Shown here one piece after another: positions 13,301 to 59,252 of a stretch of 64,000 bases of DNA. The stretch covers positions 1 to 64,000 of IMG/VR virus record IMGVR_UViG_3300027741_000048; one strand, given 5' to 3'. The translations under genes and the position numbers were made by a program. Under the pieces are notes generated by a model. It did no database searches. It saw only the letters and a program-made list of their open reading frames with translations, and was not told the DNA's origin. The first letter of the stretch is position 1. Every line of letters begins with the position of its first letter. This stretch comes from a virus.

Positions 13301-16300
13301 TTAAAAAGTTAAATTCGCACCAAGTGTGGTTTTATATAGCGTGTCGAGTTCTTTTATAGTGTTGGTCGCTGTTTCAGGGGTATTTGGATAAAGAGAAGCT
13401 GTATTACTACGGTATACTAAAGCGAAAGCTATATTACCAAAGTAGCCACCTCTTGCAAACGGATCATCACTATATGTACCAAACATTAAATTGCCTGTCG
13501 TCGTTGCAGGTACTGTGGTAATATCAGCTACGGTGTCTGTTGTTGAGATAATAGAACCGTTCTGATATACAAGTGCTGTCTTGTAATTGGAGCCGATAAC
13601 TCCATAAGAGTTAAAATTAGTACTCGAATTAGCAGTAAGAGTCGTCGTGGTATTAATAAAATCATATTCACTTACACCGTTTCCGTTGTTTGGTATAATC
13701 CAAACCCATCTTCCACTTAAACTAGGACCAGAAGCTGTCATAAGTTGCTGAATAGAGCCTTCATCTGCTGTCGGAGCTTGTGCAACAACGTAAGAAAGCA
13801 TATGCTTGTACGCAAAATCGCTATTATTACTATTAATTCTACCACTATTCTGATCACCGCTATTACCGACTAATCTGACTCCATTTACCGTCCATGCATA
13901 TTCTCCGTAAATTGTAGCGCTTGATCCTTGCGTCATGCCACCGAGTGGGTATATTGTTGTGCCTACGCCTGCGTTTTGATCGCTTATCATTGGCCAGCAT
14001 ATAATATTGTTCCAAAAGCCTAGGCCTAAGTTACGCTTTATGCCTGTGACGAAGTCGTTTATTGCCTGCCGGCTGCGTACATCAGATACACCTGCGCGTA
14101 GTATATATTCCCATGCGTCAGCGTCATACGCTGTAATGTCGCCTATTTGACCATTACCGAATGTGTATGTGAATAGTGATTGGGTTTTATCTACAAATCC
14201 TGTATTATTGCCAATAACAGCGAAAGTATCGAAGTAAGGTCCGACAGATGGGTTTAAATCAGTATCGCGATAGTTTTGGAAATTTACATGATATGTGTCG
14301 GTAGTAGGCTTATGTAACGTACATGCAATATTTGCTATTTCGTTATTGATATACTGGAATCTGTTTGTAACAATGTAGAAACAGTTAGCAGCATCTTTTG
14401 CTAGATATGTTAATGTATAGTACCCTGTATCGTCGCTATAATTTAATACAGGCTTTTCGATTTTAATAATATCTATTTCAACACCAGCTCCAAAAAGCGA
14501 GAATACTTGTAAATCAGAAAACTGTAAATCAGATGTATTTTTCTTTGGATAAATTTGCGTAGCATGGTTATTACTCAAATCAATTCTATATATAATGGGA
14601 TATATAACCTTATAGTTTGTAGCACTCGAGCTATCGGTTAATAGCGTCGTCTTACAAAATGTAAGCATATTGTCATGTTCATCAAACCAAACGCTGGAGA
14701 ATTTTTCAAACGCAGGTAACGTATTACGGTTAAACACGTTATTATTAGTTTGTGCACCAATTATATGCGAAGTGTCGTGGTCAAAACTTATTTTTTGAAA
14801 AACTAAATAGTTTTCAGTTTCGAATTGAATAATATCGTAGTAAATATCAAAGTTAATTAACTTGTTTTTTATTTCGTCAGCGGCTTCCGTTGTAAAATTA
14901 ATAAGCAGCCCGCTAAGTGCGGAAGAGACAGGGCTAATTTGGGTGCTATTATTATTTCTAAAATAAAATGAACCATATTCCGCTGTGCGTGTTTTATACA
15001 AGGTATTAGGTACAGTTTTTAATGCTGATAGCGATAAATCGACTATAGTATCTTTGTTATTCAGGCGGAGATCTTTAAAGTTTGACGGTTCAGCATATGA
15101 ATACGAATATGGTTCAGTTACAACAAAATACGGGCACCGAGGACATGGTTCTTGATTTGTTATATCGATAAAAGCACTACCATCATATTCTGTAATTCCT
15201 GTATATGTATTAGGGTTAATTAAAAAGCTCCCTGGGTAACTAGCTGTTGAAATACGATACGGTGCTTCGTAATTAACAGCACCGTCAGCTAGTTCATTGT
15301 AGTAAAATATAGATGAGGTTGGATTAAAGTTAGGGTCATCGCTCGGTATATCAGGTAGCGGGGCACCAGTCTGCTTAACGAATGTAAAGCCGTCTTTTAT
15401 TGAGCAATTATATGTACTATCAGCGATGGTCCCGAGATTATCAAAAACATATCCAGCGTTCGATATGAAGTCATACGATTCAAGCACTATAGCATCATTA
15501 TCGTCTTCAAATGTATTAGGTGCTACACTTGTTCTTAACGTAACGCCGGAGAAATTAATATAAGTGCCGTTTAATTCTGGTAGATTGGTATAAATCGGTC
15601 CACTAGCTATACTATAGTTAAAATCATAATCTTGACCACACAGCGTGTCTTTAAATGTATAACCATCGAGTATAAAGTCGATAGCGCTACTTATTTTTGG
15701 CGTTATAGTAAATTGTTTACCGGTACCGGTTTTATAAAGCCCGTATTCGTTGCCATATATGTCAGTCTTGTACTGAAAAAGTGTTTTGTCGTTAAATGTT
15801 AATAATGTACCAATACGCTGTTCTATAGGATAACGATTAATCGGGGATAACGTGTATATATCAGGATTTGACCATATGTCGTTTAAATCACCGGTGAAGA
15901 AGCTCTGCGAATCCGTATATCGCGAAAGACCGAACTCACTAGTATTTAATGACTGCTCACGAGATTGATATGCGCGAAATGTCTGTAGATACGGGTCAGA
16001 TAATACTTCACCAGCGCTATACTGATTAGAAAAATCTATTTTATTAAAATAATTATTTTCAGAAAATATAAACGGCGTGGTAAAGTCAACTTTCGTGTTA
16101 CCGGATACGTTGCCGTATTTCTGTGGGTCGGGGAAATAATACAACGTACCGGGTTGTAGCTTATCAATATTTACTTGCGGTGTAAAATCAAAATTAGTAA
16201 AATTTACTAAACCAATTTTATCGGGTTTAAAAAATAGCCCTAACTCCTTGCCGGTTTTAAAGAACTCTTCACTGGGTACTGCAGCTATAGATGGATATCT

Positions 16301-17334: not shown

Positions 17335-20300
17335 TTAGCTATTATATGTAATGTTGGTAGCGGAAGTAAATAACCGGAAGCCTTTTGTTAGTTCATAACT
17401 TAACATATTCTGTATAATACCGTCATCTACACTCCAGTCGGTGTAGGAGCTATTCTGTGGTGTAAGGGTGGTCATGGGATTATACCAATCAATGATATAA
17501 TCGTAAAAGGTATTATTATTGTTAGAAATATATTCATAAAATTCATAATATTCACTAATAGCTGATCCTGTTACTGTATTGGGTATTACCAGAGGCCATC
17601 CCCAGCTAGATGTATATGCGGATAACGGGTAGCCTGTAATAGTATCAGTTATTGTTAGTATGGATGATGTTATGGTATTTGTATTTACGAGTGAGTAAAT
17701 ACCTGAGAATCGCTCATAAGCAACGACAGGTTTATCAAAAGAAAAAACACCAGATATAGGATCAATTCTAGAGCCTAAATTTATACCGTACGTATCGTTT
17801 GATGCTATAGTTCCCTGTTTATTAAAATTGCTTGCGTATTTATTTTGCGTTCCCCATAGATTACTCTGCTTAATAGATAAAAGATCAACAAGGCGCTTGA
17901 TTTGTGGGGGGTAAAGATAATTATAATCTTGATAGTTAATACTCAGTTCATTACAGAAAGAAATGAGTGCATCGATGTTGCTCTTATCAATGTCAGATCT
18001 ATTATTAACGAAGTTGCTTATTTTTTCGTAAACAGTTTTTCCTAATTCGTATGGTTGAGCTGAAAAACCACCGACAATTGTACCGAGGAACTCATTAAAA
18101 AATACTTGTTTATCTAAAAGTGTTTCTTGATATCGTAATGAATTATAAAAACTAGCTGCGTTCCAATCTTCATTTATTTTAGATACGTTATACTGACCTG
18201 TTGATGGAAAAATGTTGAATAATGTTGATGAGCCTGTAATTGTTCTTATTGTGCTAACAGGTGCAGAGTATTTATTAATCCAATGATACCCGTTCCAATC
18301 ACCTAGTGCTTGAAATTGCTTTTGACCGCTACTGTAATTAACTGCTGATACGGCAGGTAATATAACATCTGGATATGTTAATTTAATACTATAACTGTAA
18401 CTTAAATTCGTGGTCGGTGTTTTAGCACTAGCGTCAATTAAATAAAGCGCTTTATCTGCGTTGTTTATTACCCAAATATTATTACCAGTATCGCATGTTA
18501 TTCCACCGATGTTAGAGTTATAATTATTTTGTATGTTATTACCGGCACCGGCGGTAAAATCTGTACGCGTGCGTGTCACACCATCGACGCGTGTTATTGT
18601 TTCGCGGTTGTGTGAGATCCATGCGTTTTGATTACCATCAATGGTAATATTATTGATTAATTTAAAGCCTGAAAGCGGATAACCTGTAACAATATTTCCG
18701 TATGTATCAAACTTATAAAGCAAATCGTTAGCTGTGGTAAATGAGTCGCGTACCACATTGAGGTTCTGAGCTGTCACCCAAACAAACGTATTTCTATCTA
18801 TACAAATTTCATCAGGTACAATAAAATCGGGAAATTTATATTTGTATAATATATCAGCGTTAAAGTCAAAATTATCTACACCTCTATATTTGATTAAAAA
18901 GTTATTAACAGGATGACTGTACGATATCCAGATATTGTTATCATGATCAGCGTCTATAGAGCTGGGTAAAATAGTACCGTCGCCGGCAAAACCGCTATAG
19001 CTTGAATAATCACTCGACGTGAGCATGGTTTCAGTAAAGTCAGGGCAAGCAACGTTAACTGCGTATCCATTTGTTGTGTCAAATTTTAATGCCGAGCCGC
19101 TATCGATAAGTGTTACCCATATATTATTCTGCCCGTCGAGTGTAATATAGTTCGGCGTAGCAAAGAAGCGATTACCCTGATCGTCGAGACCTCTATAATC
19201 AATATACCGTATCTGGTGGTTTATTAGTGTTGGTACGCTCGAGAGTGAAAAATAGTAAACCGGCTCGTTTGTGTCTTGACTATAGTAAAGAGGTTGTAAT
19301 ATACCGTTGTAGTCAATACGAGAAATGCGGTCGTTTATTGGATCACCAATCCAAGTCTGATAATCGTCATCGTAACCGGGTCCCTGTGGTGCCATAGCGA
19401 TAGCATATGTATTACTGTCATTAATATCGATTAACGGTTCGTTATTTGTAAATGTTACAGTTTTATTACCGTCTAAGCCGTTGTATGTTTCTTGGCGAAG
19501 TATTCTAAAAAGAGAACTATACTGCGGTATTGCTATCCAACCAACAAGTGAATCTTTTTGATAAAAAGTCGGTTCTACAATAGTTATACCGGCAGTGAGT
19601 ATGCAGTTTTGTGAAGATTGTGACGCTACAAAATATCCTTTATAAAAGCTACCAATTGATTGTGGTGCTTCAGGTGTAAAATCTTCGTAAAATGTAACAC
19701 CCTGTACGGTACTTGTATCACCGCTTTCATTAATTTGTACAACACCGAGTTGAACATTGTAGGATGTAAGTGGTGAGGTAGAATTATTTACAACACTTGA
19801 GGACGAAAGCGGTGGGTAATTCTTGGTTGTATATCCGCGTTCATCTTTTAACTTTATTAAAAACGGTATTTGTGTTTCTTGCCAACTAACGTACGGTATA
19901 TTAAAATTTGTAGCTGATAATATACCTTCACCGTCGATCCCAGTTGTTGTGATACTTAAACGGTTAGCAGGGTTAAAGCGTGTCTTAATTCCAGGAAATA
20001 CTATAGGATCGGTGTTTTGTATACCATACGGTGGGTAATTAACGGTGTCGAATATATTTCGGCTCTCCGTTAATGCGTCATTAAATTTAGAACTATCAAC
20101 AGTTGCAAAAATAAAAACTGGGTGATCTTCTGTGGTTAGATTTCCGGGTACATCATCAGTATAGAGAAACTGGCATGTACCTGTTGTACCTACAAATACA
20201 CTACCTTGATCGCTTTGATTACAGTATTGTAGCGTATTATCTACAATGCTAACAAAAAGCTGTGTTTGCTGCGCTGTTAGACTATTAATAAGTGTATAGC

Positions 20301-54958: not shown

Positions 54959-55648
54959 CTAATTGCTAGCGTATTCACTTAGGAACTTTGTTTGGTTCTC
55001 ATTAAACGTTTTGTCGTTGAGATCACTCAATCCCGGTGATCCGTGAAACGTAAGAATTGGTATAACACCGAGCTTGAGCTTCTTCTTATTAGCATCAATA
55101 CAACTGGATATGTCGTAGTGGTGGAATGTATAATTTTCATTAAATCTCCAGTTTACTTCACGTACTTTTGCGGTATCAACAGACATGAATGCACCGTCTA
55201 AGATAGCTACACGCGCAGGCGTCGGACCAAAGCTAGTGATTGATGTTGTATTGTTGTTAGATACAAAATGGCCAGCAAACCCTCTTAGGTTACCACCTTG
55301 AAACCCTCCGCACATAATATGCCAGAGAGCAGGTGCCTTAATAATAGGATTAATACCACCGGCTAATCCTAAAATATTATACGTATTATGACCTATCTCA
55401 AGCTTTTTTAAAAAACCAGCGTCATCAATCCACATATCATCATGTGTAAAGAGGATAATATCAGATACGCTTTTATCTAACACCTTATTATATATCTTAC
55501 TTAGACTGTCTGTATTCTGCGTTTTAAACGTCAATTTATCCAACACACTAACATGAAATTCGCGTTCGAGCTTAGCTAAGCTCTGATATAGGTAAGTCTG
55601 CTTGTAGTCGGTTTTTTGTGTACAGGAGAAAATTGAGATTGTTTTCAT
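54959..55648 (-). CDS. Glycosyltransferase, family 2-like (GT-A fold)
   Basis: A 229-residue protein with a GT-A layout: 'MKTISIFSCTQKTDYKQTYL', 'DIILFTHDDMWIDDAGFLK' (the Asp-Asp metal site), 'ARVAILDGAFMSVDTAKVRE' (acceptor loop) and 'FHHYDISSCIDANKKKLKL', closing with 'IPILTFHGSPG'. It would transfer a sugar from a nucleotide donor, but the acceptor (DNA base, virion protein or host surface) is unknown. Its ATG overlaps the stop of the glutamine amidotransferase gene by 4 bases, implying linked function. Confidence 0.75.
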   Translation of the reverse strand: MKTISIFSCTQKTDYKQTYLYQSLAKLEREFHVSVLDKLTFKTQNTDSLSKIYNKVLDKSVSDIILFTHDDMWIDDAGFLKKLEIGHNTYNILGLAGGINPIIKAPALWHIMCGGFQGGNLRGFAGHFVSNNNTTSITSFGPTPARVAILDGAFMSVDTAKVREVNWRFNENYTFHHYDISSCIDANKKKLKLGVIPILTFHGSPGLSDLNDKTFNENQTKFLSEYASN

Positions 55649-56331
55649 AATAAAAAGAACGGTGAGTTTTTTGTAAAGCCTCCGACAGATGTTATCCCTT
55701 CGAGAGTTATTTGATATAAGACGCCTTCTTCCAGGGAAGTAAAATTAGTCTCTGGAAGAGATGAAAAGGTATTATTAATCAGGTCTGCGTAAATAGTGCT
55801 ACCAGATCTCGCAATGAAAGTATTATGTGTTACTTTATTATAAATCCATAATCCAAATGTACCTTCGAGTTTTGAAAGAATTTTACAAATAAGATCGGTT
55901 TCGCTTAACCCTGATTCGTCGCTTTCTTGCGCTAACAAGGCAGGTATTACTGACGAATCAACCTCATTAAATGTATTTTTATCTCGAACTTGGTTTTTTA
56001 GTTTAATGTCATTAGTTAATACGCCATTGTGCGCGACAACCCACATATTGCATTCAAATGGGTGTGACGTTTTTCGATCAAAGGAACGTTTAGAGCTTGT
56101 CGGTGCCTGTGTATGTCCTAGATAATAATAAAAATCGGATGGTCGCATTGATACACTACTATTTTGAATTGACATATTTTTTGACAATTCAACAACGCTT
56201 TCTTCTTTAACGATAGCGTCGTATGCATGACTTAAAAATAAACCGCCGTATGCAAATGTACCACGTTCTTTATTTTTATTATAAAGTTTGCTGTATTTAG
56301 CAAACTCGTTGGATCCAAATATTCCGCAAAT
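55645..56331 (-). CDS. Class II glutamine amidotransferase with an apparent ATT start
   Basis: The frame runs from an ATT at 56331 and gives 228 residues: M(ATT)-'CGIFGSNEFAKYSKLYNKN', then 'ERGTFAYGGLFLSHAYD', 'DFYYYLGHTQAPTSSKRSFD', 'MWVVAHNGVLTND' and 'LEGTFGLWIYNKVTHNTF'. Class II amidotransferases need Cys as residue 2, so the codon before it must start translation. No ATG, GTG or TTG lies between the upstream in-frame stop and this Cys. A strong Shine-Dalgarno AGGAGG sits 8 bases upstream. The first ATG (56187) would delete the catalytic Cys. The enzyme releases ammonia from glutamine for a partner enzyme. It overlaps the glycosyltransferase gene by 4 bases. Confidence 0.8.
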   Translation of the reverse strand: MCGIFGSNEFAKYSKLYNKNKERGTFAYGGLFLSHAYDAIVKEESVVELSKNMSIQNSSVSMRPSDFYYYLGHTQAPTSSKRSFDRKTSHPFECNMWVVAHNGVLTNDIKLKNQVRDKNTFNEVDSSVIPALLAQESDESGLSETDLICKILSKLEGTFGLWIYNKVTHNTFIARSGSTIYADLINNTFSSLPETNFTSLEEGVLYQITLEGITSVGGFTKNSPFFLL

Positions 56332-56374
56332 AGCGTTACCCTCCTCTCCTGTTTGAATAGCTAATATTCATAGT

Positions 56375-56434
56375 ATGAATTATTATATCTATAAAATAAC
56401 CAATATCAATACAGGAAAATTTTATATTGGTTAA
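56375..56434 (+). pseudogene. GIY-YIG homing endonuclease relic
   Basis: A 19-codon frame reads 'MNYYIYKITNINTGKFYIG' then TAA. This is the exact start of GIY-YIG endonucleases (Y-I-Y-K-I-T-N, then G-K-x-Y-I-G). The +1 frame continues with 'VNIIVKARLYLDILKFNIE' until 56516, which has some likeness to the next part of the family, so a frameshifted remnant of about 48 codons may be present. The catalytic Arg/Glu region is missing. Confidence 0.6.
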
Positions 56435-56522: not shown

Positions 56523-57419
56523 ATGAATCGTGATTCACATTTAATTTTTGAAGCATATACGCAGCGTTTAACGGAAATGGCTCTTAAGACAGATTATACA
56601 AAGGTCCGTGAAGCTATCATTAATGGTCTAAAGGGCAGATCAGGTAATTCTTATCTCTTTAAGACAGTTGCAGATAAAACTGGACAGAGTGTAGAAGAAG
56701 TTGTTGATGTACTTGTTAAGCCTGTGATCGACGCGTTATTCCCAGGTGGTGTATTCTCATCGACAGGTGAGAGAAAGGACCAGGTCAGTAAATTACAAAA
56801 TTCGATTCATCAAGAGCTTGCAAGACAGTACGGCAGTGCTGTATCAGGTTATACAGCGAGAATTATTAAGAATTTTATCGATAATGTTATCGAGACAGTA
56901 GATGATGAAGTTGAGCAAGGAGAGCCTGTTTCAGATGCTAAGAATGACGTTGTAGCAGCGATTGCACAGGTTGCTGATAAATCTGAAGAAGAGGTAAATA
57001 GTGGAGCTACGCAGGAGCAGCCATTAGAAGTAGATGCATCTACAGAAGGTAGCGCCGGTGGCAATGCACTATTACAGCATGCTGTTGATCAGGTTGGTGA
57101 TGGTATTAATGAGGATGAATTAATTGATATTCTTAAACAGCATATCGTACAGAAGGATTCTGATGTTAGTGAAGCACGTGCCAAAGGCCAAGCAAAAGGT
57201 GTTATTAACAAGCTTATTGCATCAAACGTCCTTACAAAAAGAGGTACATATCTTGAACCTGGTGAAAAGGCTGATGAGTTTGCCGAAAAGGGTGATTTAT
57301 CTCTTGTCGGTGCTAGTGAAAAAGAATATGCCGCGCGTGAATTCGGTGTTGGTAGTCGACCGACATCAGGTCGCCAAGTCTTCGGCGGCGAAGACAGATT
57401 CGGCGGAATGTTCGGTTAA
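56523..57419 (+). CDS. Acidic helical protein, candidate head-internal or scaffold protein
   Basis: A 298-residue protein. The leader 'NRDSHLIFEAYTQRLTEMAL' resembles capsid-targeting N-termini of T4-like phages. The body is helical, with a central acidic, Ala/Glu/Ser-rich stretch (about 128-180). The end is Gly/Arg-rich and repetitive ('FGVGSRPTSGRQVFGGEDRF' then 'GGMFG'). It is a single + strand gene between minus-strand genes with its own late-like promoter, overlapping the convergent queC by 4 bases. No family recognised. Confidence 0.45.
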   Translation: MNRDSHLIFEAYTQRLTEMALKTDYTKVREAIINGLKGRSGNSYLFKTVADKTGQSVEEVVDVLVKPVIDALFPGGVFSSTGERKDQVSKLQNSIHQELARQYGSAVSGYTARIIKNFIDNVIETVDDEVEQGEPVSDAKNDVVAAIAQVADKSEEEVNSGATQEQPLEVDASTEGSAGGNALLQHAVDQVGDGINEDELIDILKQHIVQKDSDVSEARAKGQAKGVINKLIASNVLTKRGTYLEPGEKADEFAEKGDLSLVGASEKEYAAREFGVGSRPTSGRQVFGGEDRFGGMFG

Positions 57420-58132
57420 ACCTTACCGAGTAAGTGATCCCAGGGTATATTTCTAGAATATTTAAGAGGATCCTCAATACCTGCATCTATAAAGCCCTTA
57501 AGTCTCAAAGCACATGCTGTGCATTCTCCGCATGCTTCTTCAAGACCTTCATAGCAAGTCCATGTATGACTAAAGTCAACACCGAGCTTTAATCCGAATT
57601 CAATAATCTCCTTCTTTGAGAGACCAATTAATGGAGCTTCAATGGTAATTTTATTTCTCCTATTCAAAACAGTTATATTATTAATAACTGATAAAAACTC
57701 TGGCGATCCATCCCAATATCCTGCGACAGAGTCAGCTTGAGCTGCACCGTGATATACAACACCGGCACCGAAGCTTTCAGCGTATGAGCATGCAATGCTC
57801 AAAAGCATCATATTTCTAAATGGTACGTAATTAACTGTTTGCGGGTCACCCATTACATCTTTCGCTTTAGCAACATCAATAGTATGATCTGTTAACGATG
57901 AACTCTTAATACTATTAAAAAATGGTAACTCTACTACATTGCTAGTACGTATTTTACTATTAACGGTTTCGTTAACATTATTAATCTGCCAACTAGCGTA
58001 TTCTAATTCTTTCTTATGTCTTTGACCGTAATCAAAAGAGATGACATGTACATCATCAAACTTTGATGCCGCTAAATGCAGTAGTACAGTACTATCCATA
58101 CCACCGCTTACTGGCACTACAACCTTACTCAT
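57416..58132 (-). CDS. queC: 7-cyano-7-deazaguanine (preQ0) synthase QueC
   Basis: A 238-residue protein starting at the ATG at 58132 ('MSKVVVPVSGGMDSTVLLHL'), which overlaps the uvsX stop by 8 bases; the longer frame is unlikely. The PP-loop 'SGGMDST' binds ATP. 'YVPFRNMMLLSIACSYAESF' and 'VYHGAAQADSVAGYWDGSPE' are family segments, and 'CYEGLEEACGECTACALR' supplies the four zinc cysteines. QueC converts 7-carboxy-7-deazaguanine to preQ0. In phages this feeds 7-deazaguanine DNA modification. Other pathway genes (folE, queD, queE, dpdA) were not seen here. Confidence 0.93.
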   Translation of the reverse strand: MSKVVVPVSGGMDSTVLLHLAASKFDDVHVISFDYGQRHKKELEYASWQINNVNETVNSKIRTSNVVELPFFNSIKSSSLTDHTIDVAKAKDVMGDPQTVNYVPFRNMMLLSIACSYAESFGAGVVYHGAAQADSVAGYWDGSPEFLSVINNITVLNRRNKITIEAPLIGLSKKEIIEFGLKLGVDFSHTWTCYEGLEEACGECTACALRLKGFIDAGIEDPLKYSRNIPWDHLLGKV

Positions 58133-59252
58133 TTTCAAGTACCTCGAGATTATCACCGCTTACTTCAGCGCTGTTATATTTATAATCTTCAGCTAGCCGC
58201 TTATCTAGTTCAGGAATAATAAAATCTTCAAAGAAAGATATATCCTTAACAAAATTCTTTGCATAACCAAGTTTATCGCCCTTCTTATATTTACCTGAAT
58301 CCATACCGACAACATAGGTAGAACCGGTTTGTTCGATAATACCACGAGCGGTAGCCATTTGAAGAAGACCACTGTATTTGTTAAGTCCAGACTTAAAAGA
58401 AAGATACATCTCAGCTTCAAGAAAAGGCGGTACAAATCGGTTCTTAACTGTAAGTGCGCGAATAGTAGTACCAGAGTATTTGTTAGCTTCTGCAAGCTTA
58501 GTTGTATTTACTGCACCTGAATCACCTTCACCTTCTTTTTCATTTCTCTTTGCAAGCTGTACAAGAATACTCGCCATATAAACAGGACCTGATCCACCGG
58601 ATTGAGTTTTAACTAAAGACGGAAACATGGCACCAGGATCAGAATATGTATGATTGGTAAAGAGAATCGTTACACCCGCTTTACCTGCCTTATATGTAAG
58701 GGTTCTGAGCATCGATTTAAGTGACTTTGCTCTTAGACCCATATCAGCTGCTGATTTATCCTTAGCAATATCGTCAATTTCCTTTTGTGATGATAGATTA
58801 CCGAGACTGTCAATACTAATAATAAACTTACCCTGCTGACCTGCTTCAATTACACTATCAAGAAATGCTGATATTTGATTACGACATTGATCAACAGTAT
58901 AAACTGGAACATATTTTGTCTTACTAGCATCAAGTCCTACGCCTTTCGTCGATCCTTCGTCAATAGCAAACTCCGTATCGAAGATAACGGGAATAACGTC
59001 TTGCTTCTGAGCGTTAGCAAGAATCTTATTAACAATAAATGTCTTGCCTGTCATTGACTCACCGGAAAATCCTATTATACGCCCCTTCGGTACTCCGCCT
59101 TTTCTACAGCTGCCTCCAAGTATAGCGTTCAGTGCATAGCAGCCTGTATCGTACCAGGTGTCAACGTTAGAAAGAGCGTTGTCATCGAGAAATGAGGCCT
59201 CAGCATTCATTGAATCAAGCTTTTTGAAAATGTTATCAATTTCTTTACTCAT
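58125..59252 (-). CDS. uvsX: Recombinase UvsX (RecA-like)
   Basis: A 375-residue protein. The start is taken at the ATG at 59252 ('MSKEIDNIFKKLDSMNAEAS'); a TTG two codons upstream is less likely. Motifs: Walker A 'GFSGESMTGKTFIVNKIL' (core about 64-71), 'PVIFDTEFAIDEGSTKG', Walker B 'KFIISIDSLGNLSS' and loop regions 'RAKSLKSMLRTLTYKAGKAG' and 'TILFTNHTYSDPGAMFPSL'. It forms filaments on ssDNA for strand exchange and recombination-dependent replication. The C-terminus is acidic. T4 UvsX is 391 residues. Confidence 0.92.
   Translation of the reverse strand: MSKEIDNIFKKLDSMNAEASFLDDNALSNVDTWYDTGCYALNAILGGSCRKGGVPKGRIIGFSGESMTGKTFIVNKILANAQKQDVIPVIFDTEFAIDEGSTKGVGLDASKTKYVPVYTVDQCRNQISAFLDSVIEAGQQGKFIISIDSLGNLSSQKEIDDIAKDKSAADMGLRAKSLKSMLRTLTYKAGKAGVTILFTNHTYSDPGAMFPSLVKTQSGGSGPVYMASILVQLAKRNEKEGEGDSGAVNTTKLAEANKYSGTTIRALTVKNRFVPPFLEAEMYLSFKSGLNKYSGLLQMATARGIIEQTGSTYVVGMDSGKYKKGDKLGYAKNFVKDISFFEDFIIPELDKRLAEDYKYNSAEVSGDNLEVLENE

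Follow-up and report, generated by a model that had tools for sequence, protein, structure and literature searches.

Few cellular genes are known to initiate at AUU. In Escherichia coli an AUU start limits or regulates the expression of infC and pcnB, and in Staphylococcus aureus an extended Shine–Dalgarno (SD) sequence is conserved together with a non-canonical start in cvfC1 (AUU), which is also the first gene of its operon, and in ccpN (AUA), as described in PMC13009471. A different exception is reported from Flavobacteriales, whose genomes are depleted in SD sequences and typically retain one strong-SD gene, rpsU, which encodes ribosomal protein bS21 and is read by ribosomes lacking bS21 (PMC9976891). 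In Flavobacterium johnsoniae, bS21-deficient ribosomes favor mRNAs with strong SDs, and pairing below -13 kcal/mol was reported as characteristic of rpsU (PMC9976891). Here we describe a phage gene that recalls both situations. It encodes a class II glutamine amidotransferase at 55,645–56,331 on the minus strand of a 64,000-nucleotide stretch (hereafter the window) of virus record IMGVR_UViG_3300027741_000048, and almost certainly begins with ATT behind a very strong SD. The open-access PMC literature yielded no previous description of an AUU start in a phage amidotransferase.

The resemblance to each of these systems is partial. As in infC and pcnB, AUU is the sole possible start and has been kept in evolution, but those are cellular genes in an SD-using host, whereas the phage gene couples AUU to an SD that is otherwise absent. 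S. aureus uses extended SDs generally, and the passages on these genes in PMC13009471 describe no switching to AUG in the absence of an SD. The likeness to rpsU of Flavobacteriales (PMC9976891) lies in one exceptional SD within an SD-depleted genome, and the purine block GAGAGGAGG of the window leader recurs in front of many rpsU genes. However, rpsU starts with AUG (80 of the 80 Flavobacterium rpsU loci checked, pairing at -18 to -23 kcal/mol by the calculation used here) and encodes bS21, while the phage gene starts with AUU and encodes an amidotransferase.

Start codon and reading frame

The predicted protein (228 codons, beginning ICGIFG) is a class II (Ntn) glutamine amidotransferase, as judged from Pfam matches above cut-offs (GATase_6, 2.9e-9; GATase_7, 2.9e-6) and conserved motifs, and is probably of the 7-deazaguanine, QueC-partner type. 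Alignment of homologs drawn from IMG/VR, of which 98 distinct viral starts were compared, showed the AHNGVLTN and EVDSS columns to be invariant or nearly so, with the HNG and Asp motifs kept. The catalytic Cys, which immediately follows the initiator residue, was present as Cys2 in all 98 homologs with an intact start, as the first-pass annotation had proposed in placing it at residue 2 behind an ATT codon.

Read on the minus strand, the frame runs from an in-frame TGA at its 5′ boundary (56,368–56,370) through twelve codons devoid of ATG, GTG, or TTG to the ATT (56,329–56,331), followed by TGC GGA ATA TTT GG; the predicted lack of an ordinary start after the upstream stop thus stands. The next ordinary start downstream is a TTG at 56,187, use of which would lose Cys2. 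A Cys-less protein begun there had been named as the outcome that would overturn an ATT start, and it is contradicted by the invariance of Cys2 among homologs. Start codons in the 98 homologs comprised 41 ATT and 57 ATG, with no other codon. Of the 41 ATT genes, 36 lack any in-frame ATG, GTG, or TTG between the upstream stop and the ATT, and in some ATT genes that stop lies only two to three codons 5′ of the ATT. Recurrence of ATT at exactly the same codon in 41 distinct homologs besides the window leaves, in practice, no room for chance or a read error, and confirms the proposal that the gene must start at ATT. A sequencing artefact, or a start elsewhere such as the TTG at 56,187, is hardly credible given the recurrence of ATT in dozens of independent contigs and the invariant Cys2; comparison has already refuted it. 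ATT is nearly certainly the sole workable start of this gene, and comparison among homologs indicates that translation truly begins at AUU. Annotation limited to ATG, GTG, and TTG will truncate or miss such genes, losing the catalytic Cys.

Coupling of ATT to a Shine–Dalgarno sequence

The AGGAGG at 56,345–56,340 (minus strand) lies 8 nt before the ATT, as originally noted, and forms the core of a purine run, AGGAGAGGAGGG (56,339–56,350). Duplex energies were computed against a generic 16S tail, GAUCACCUCCUUUCU, with which the window leader pairs at -16.9 kcal/mol. All 41 ATT genes carry an SD with a duplex energy of -10.2 to -16.9 kcal/mol, and only two of the 57 ATG homologs (L055 and L106) reach -9.5 kcal/mol (Fisher p about 1e-25). 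The spacing from the end of the SD core to the ATT is 8, 9, or 10 nt in every one of the 41. This spacing is unchanged although the distance from the promoter-like box to the SD core differs, from 5–6 nt after the TATAAT box in the common ATT leaders to 37 nt in the window’s leader family, which ties the purine block to the start codon rather than to the promoter.

A maximum-likelihood tree of the homologs, built without the first residue, needs eight changes between ATT and ATG, at least six of them on starred, well-supported branches. In four to five independent pairs the SD changes in step with the start codon, and no pair shows the opposite change, although so few pairs do not allow a formal test at the 5% level. 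When the whole IMG/VR set was scanned without bias for GGAGG, any codon, and then C-[GA]-I-F-G, 48 ATT genes with an open frame were recovered, including two distant, previously unseen members (L342 and L383) that have the SD; the ATG matches were other, mostly longer amidotransferases. We consider the SD-coupled nature of the ATT start well supported by these comparisons. Repeated switching between an SD-less AUG and an AUU preceded by a very strong SD constitutes a natural experiment on the contribution of each element.

The first-pass annotation had suggested a deliberately low or regulated start, tied like that of infC to discrimination by initiation factor 3 (IF3). Recurrence, conservation, and the ever-present strong SD do look like deliberate translational control by SD and AUU in this gene family; a tie to IF3 of the infC kind, on the other hand, seems improbable. 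In one closely related pair, L053 has an ATT with an SD of -16.9 kcal/mol, and L055 an ATG with an SD-like site of -9.8 kcal/mol.

Leader and upstream open reading frame

A TATAATA promoter-like box (56,381–56,387, minus strand) appears to be kept in both leader types. In ATG relatives sharing the TATAAT box the ATG lies mostly 3–9 nt behind it, with no SD, which suggests near-leaderless mRNAs. The window leader also contains an 11-codon upstream open reading frame (uORF; 56,336–56,371, minus strand) that runs from ATG to TAA in another frame and would encode MNISYSNRRGG. The AUG of the uORF coincides in alignment with the one at which the SD-less relatives start.

The uORF raises the possibility that AUU is not a start at all and that the uORF feeds the amidotransferase frame, by a +1 frameshift at GGG UAA C or by termination–reinitiation. 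The stretch AGG AGA GGA GGG UAA C is reminiscent of the slip site in prfB, and the uORF is conserved in the window’s leader family (L010–L013, L023, and L053) with the pattern MN..YSNRRGG and a stop that overlaps the SD region and lies 4 nt 5′ of the ATT. However, 35 of the 41 ATT homologs fall outside this family, the SD core in 24 starts 5–6 nt after the TATAAT, leaving no space for a uORF, and ATG-type relatives need no propeptide. Since most ATT leaders lack the uORF, frameshifting or reinitiation is unlikely to be general, and we regard this explanation as very improbable.

An Rfam search of the leader identified no RNA family, with nothing but chance matches below threshold. Pattern scans led us to reject the leader as a mobile cassette placed before other genes: all five exact matches lie before the same amidotransferase gene. 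Upstream of the gene, positions 56,380–56,431 are AT-rich with inverted repeats, and this 52-nt stretch matches at 85% DNA identity the region of a Seg-like homing endonuclease gene in Dhakavirus-type phages.

Shine–Dalgarno depletion in the phage genome

The amidotransferase is the only gene in the window with an extended SD. None of 55 first-ATG starts in the window reaches -8 kcal/mol, compared with three in the mock region. Mean pairing at gene starts was weaker than in mock regions in the window and in five related genomes, and for the window combined with the rest of its record it was -1.66 versus -2.75 kcal/mol (p = 0.007). A single exceptional SD in an SD-depleted genome holds for the window and for the related genome G016; a third genome, G018, has two further genes with SD-like sites, both within mock background. 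The phage group is a freshwater one in which nearly all genes lack an SD. By contrast, Pelagibacter phage HTVC008M uses SDs, and cyanophage P-HM2 displays no comparable depletion. SD-depleted starts suggest a Bacteroidia-type host.

Possible mechanisms of translational control

In our proposed mechanism the phage’s other genes would be read without SD pairing, as in Bacteroidia, and AUU would be nearly useless to ribosomes that initiate in this way. The strong SD would then open the amidotransferase gene to ribosomes whose anti-SD, in the 16S rRNA tail, is available to bind the mRNA, namely those lacking bS21 or carrying an altered bS21. Such a division of labor would explain why both features co-occur and why AUG is used where the SD is absent, since AUU would block SD-independent starts and the SD would permit SD-dependent ones. 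Normal host ribosomes might then make little amidotransferase, and output during infection might increase or decrease with bS21 state, the anti-SD being freed by a bS21 shortage, by a phage bS21, or by something else. Whether the gene is read mainly through SD–anti-SD pairing, by ribosomes with missing or altered bS21 and with AUU barring SD-independent initiation, is in our judgment an even call, and the bS21 switch is offered as a testable hypothesis.

Phage-encoded bS21 lends this mechanism a candidate component. Matches to PF01165 (bS21) were found in 15 of 24 related records, and phmmer ties the bS21-like phage protein to bS21 structures in the Protein Data Bank (PDB). At 23 of 31 ATT loci, versus 4 of 50 ATG loci, a bS21-like open reading frame with the same orientation follows 3.0 kb downstream. 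In a more specific version, SD and AUU would act as an AND gate, silent on normal Bacteroidia-type ribosomes and opened by an exposed anti-SD that the phage bS21 of the same operon makes available or titrates. We hold this version to be somewhat doubtful; if true, the phage would be exploiting specialized ribosomes to time one DNA-modification gene.

Several observations weigh against the SD-dependent mechanism or parts of it. The presence of bS21 changes only three times on the tree, so shared ancestry confounds its association with ATT; bS21 also occurs in some SD-less ATG phages; and none was found in the window’s own 79 kb record, which is a fragment. With the generic 16S tail, pairing in most ATT relatives amounts to -10 to -13 kcal/mol and falls short of the values characteristic of rpsU, and L055 and L106 have an SD-like site despite an ATG start. 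As for the host, 395 genomes sampled from the phylum to which a Bacteroidetes metagenome-assembled genome belongs yielded no convincing clustered regularly interspaced short palindromic repeat (CRISPR) spacers, and the Bacteroidota promoter motif TAnnTTTG was not enriched (16 versus 28 expected). Adjacency of bS21, tried as an independent correlate of ATT, failed as such with so few independent changes. The bS21-like proteins of L175–L184 (near 1,420–1,650) carry an additional segment at the N-terminus (KKKCTDKxY) and diverge at the C-terminus; in the ATT-phage operon their genes are flanked by a small conserved gene on one side and a gp32-proximal one on the other.

The simplest rival is that a strong SD and a weak AUU balance to a fixed low output, with no switch and no special ribosome. 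In S. aureus the extended SD and AUU of cvfC1 give about 10% of the AUG output (PMC13009471), and, to judge from the title of a study cited there, the AUU start of pcnB limits this gene in E. coli. SD-less, near-leaderless AUG relatives could reach a similarly low output by another route. Such dose setting leaves unexplained why AUU alone, and never GUG, UUG, AUA, AUC, or CUG, was found in 41 cases, and why an exceptional SD occurs in a genome that otherwise avoids SDs. We treat it as a real possibility, albeit one we lean away from.

Control of the infC type, in which IF3 rejects AUU and output follows IF3 level or growth state, seems improbable. The AUU start of infC has an established role in feedback by IF3 (Sacerdot et al. 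1996, as cited in PMC2268962), and AUU is the only non-ATG start used in the phage family. By itself, however, IF3 discrimination does not explain obligatory coupling to an SD in an SD-less genome, and a search of 17 related phage records found no IF3 gene. The tRNA-Met of phage G018 has no initiator-type GGG/CCC anticodon stem. Because the gene carries the window’s only extended SD, in an SD-depleted phage, SD–anti-SD pairing, possibly with bS21, is a likelier regulatory axis than IF3.

If the SD-dependent switch is true, phages use ribosome heterogeneity, in the form of bS21, for gene control, which suggests a function for phage-encoded bS21, an open question that would become testable with existing F. 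johnsoniae bS21 strains.

Gene neighborhood and DNA modification

The window belongs to a T4-like phage, judging from its gene content, and is part of a 79 kb virus record; gp32, a DnaB-type helicase, UvsX/RecA, and a family B polymerase surround the amidotransferase. Immediately downstream, a glycosyltransferase-like gene (54,959–55,648, minus strand) overlaps the amidotransferase gene by ATGA, an order kept in relatives, and the two may be translationally coupled through this overlap. A divergent gene of unassigned function (56,523–57,419, plus strand) shares the intergenic region, and beyond it lies a gene for a QueC-like 7-cyano-7-deazaguanine synthase (57,416–58,156, minus strand; Pfam QueC, 3e-60).

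The rest of the record (L172) encodes FolE and QueD homologs at 14,366–15,019 (minus strand) and 17,691–18,362 (plus strand). Together with a QueC gene adjoining the amidotransferase, these genes make a 7-deazaguanine DNA-modification pathway likely. Amidotransferase and QueC also serve such a pathway in the Gat-QueC proteins of phages such as 9g (PMC6884629), but here they are two separate genes. The amidotransferase gene lies directly downstream of queC in distant relatives, so the pair may represent a split version of the 9g Gat-QueC; in other relatives queC is near. A homolog search of a collection of genome contigs (genome_contigs) returned no amidotransferase homolog. Across the window and its relatives, a T4-type late promoter motif, NATAAATA, is approximately fourfold enriched upstream of genes (140 versus 36 expected).
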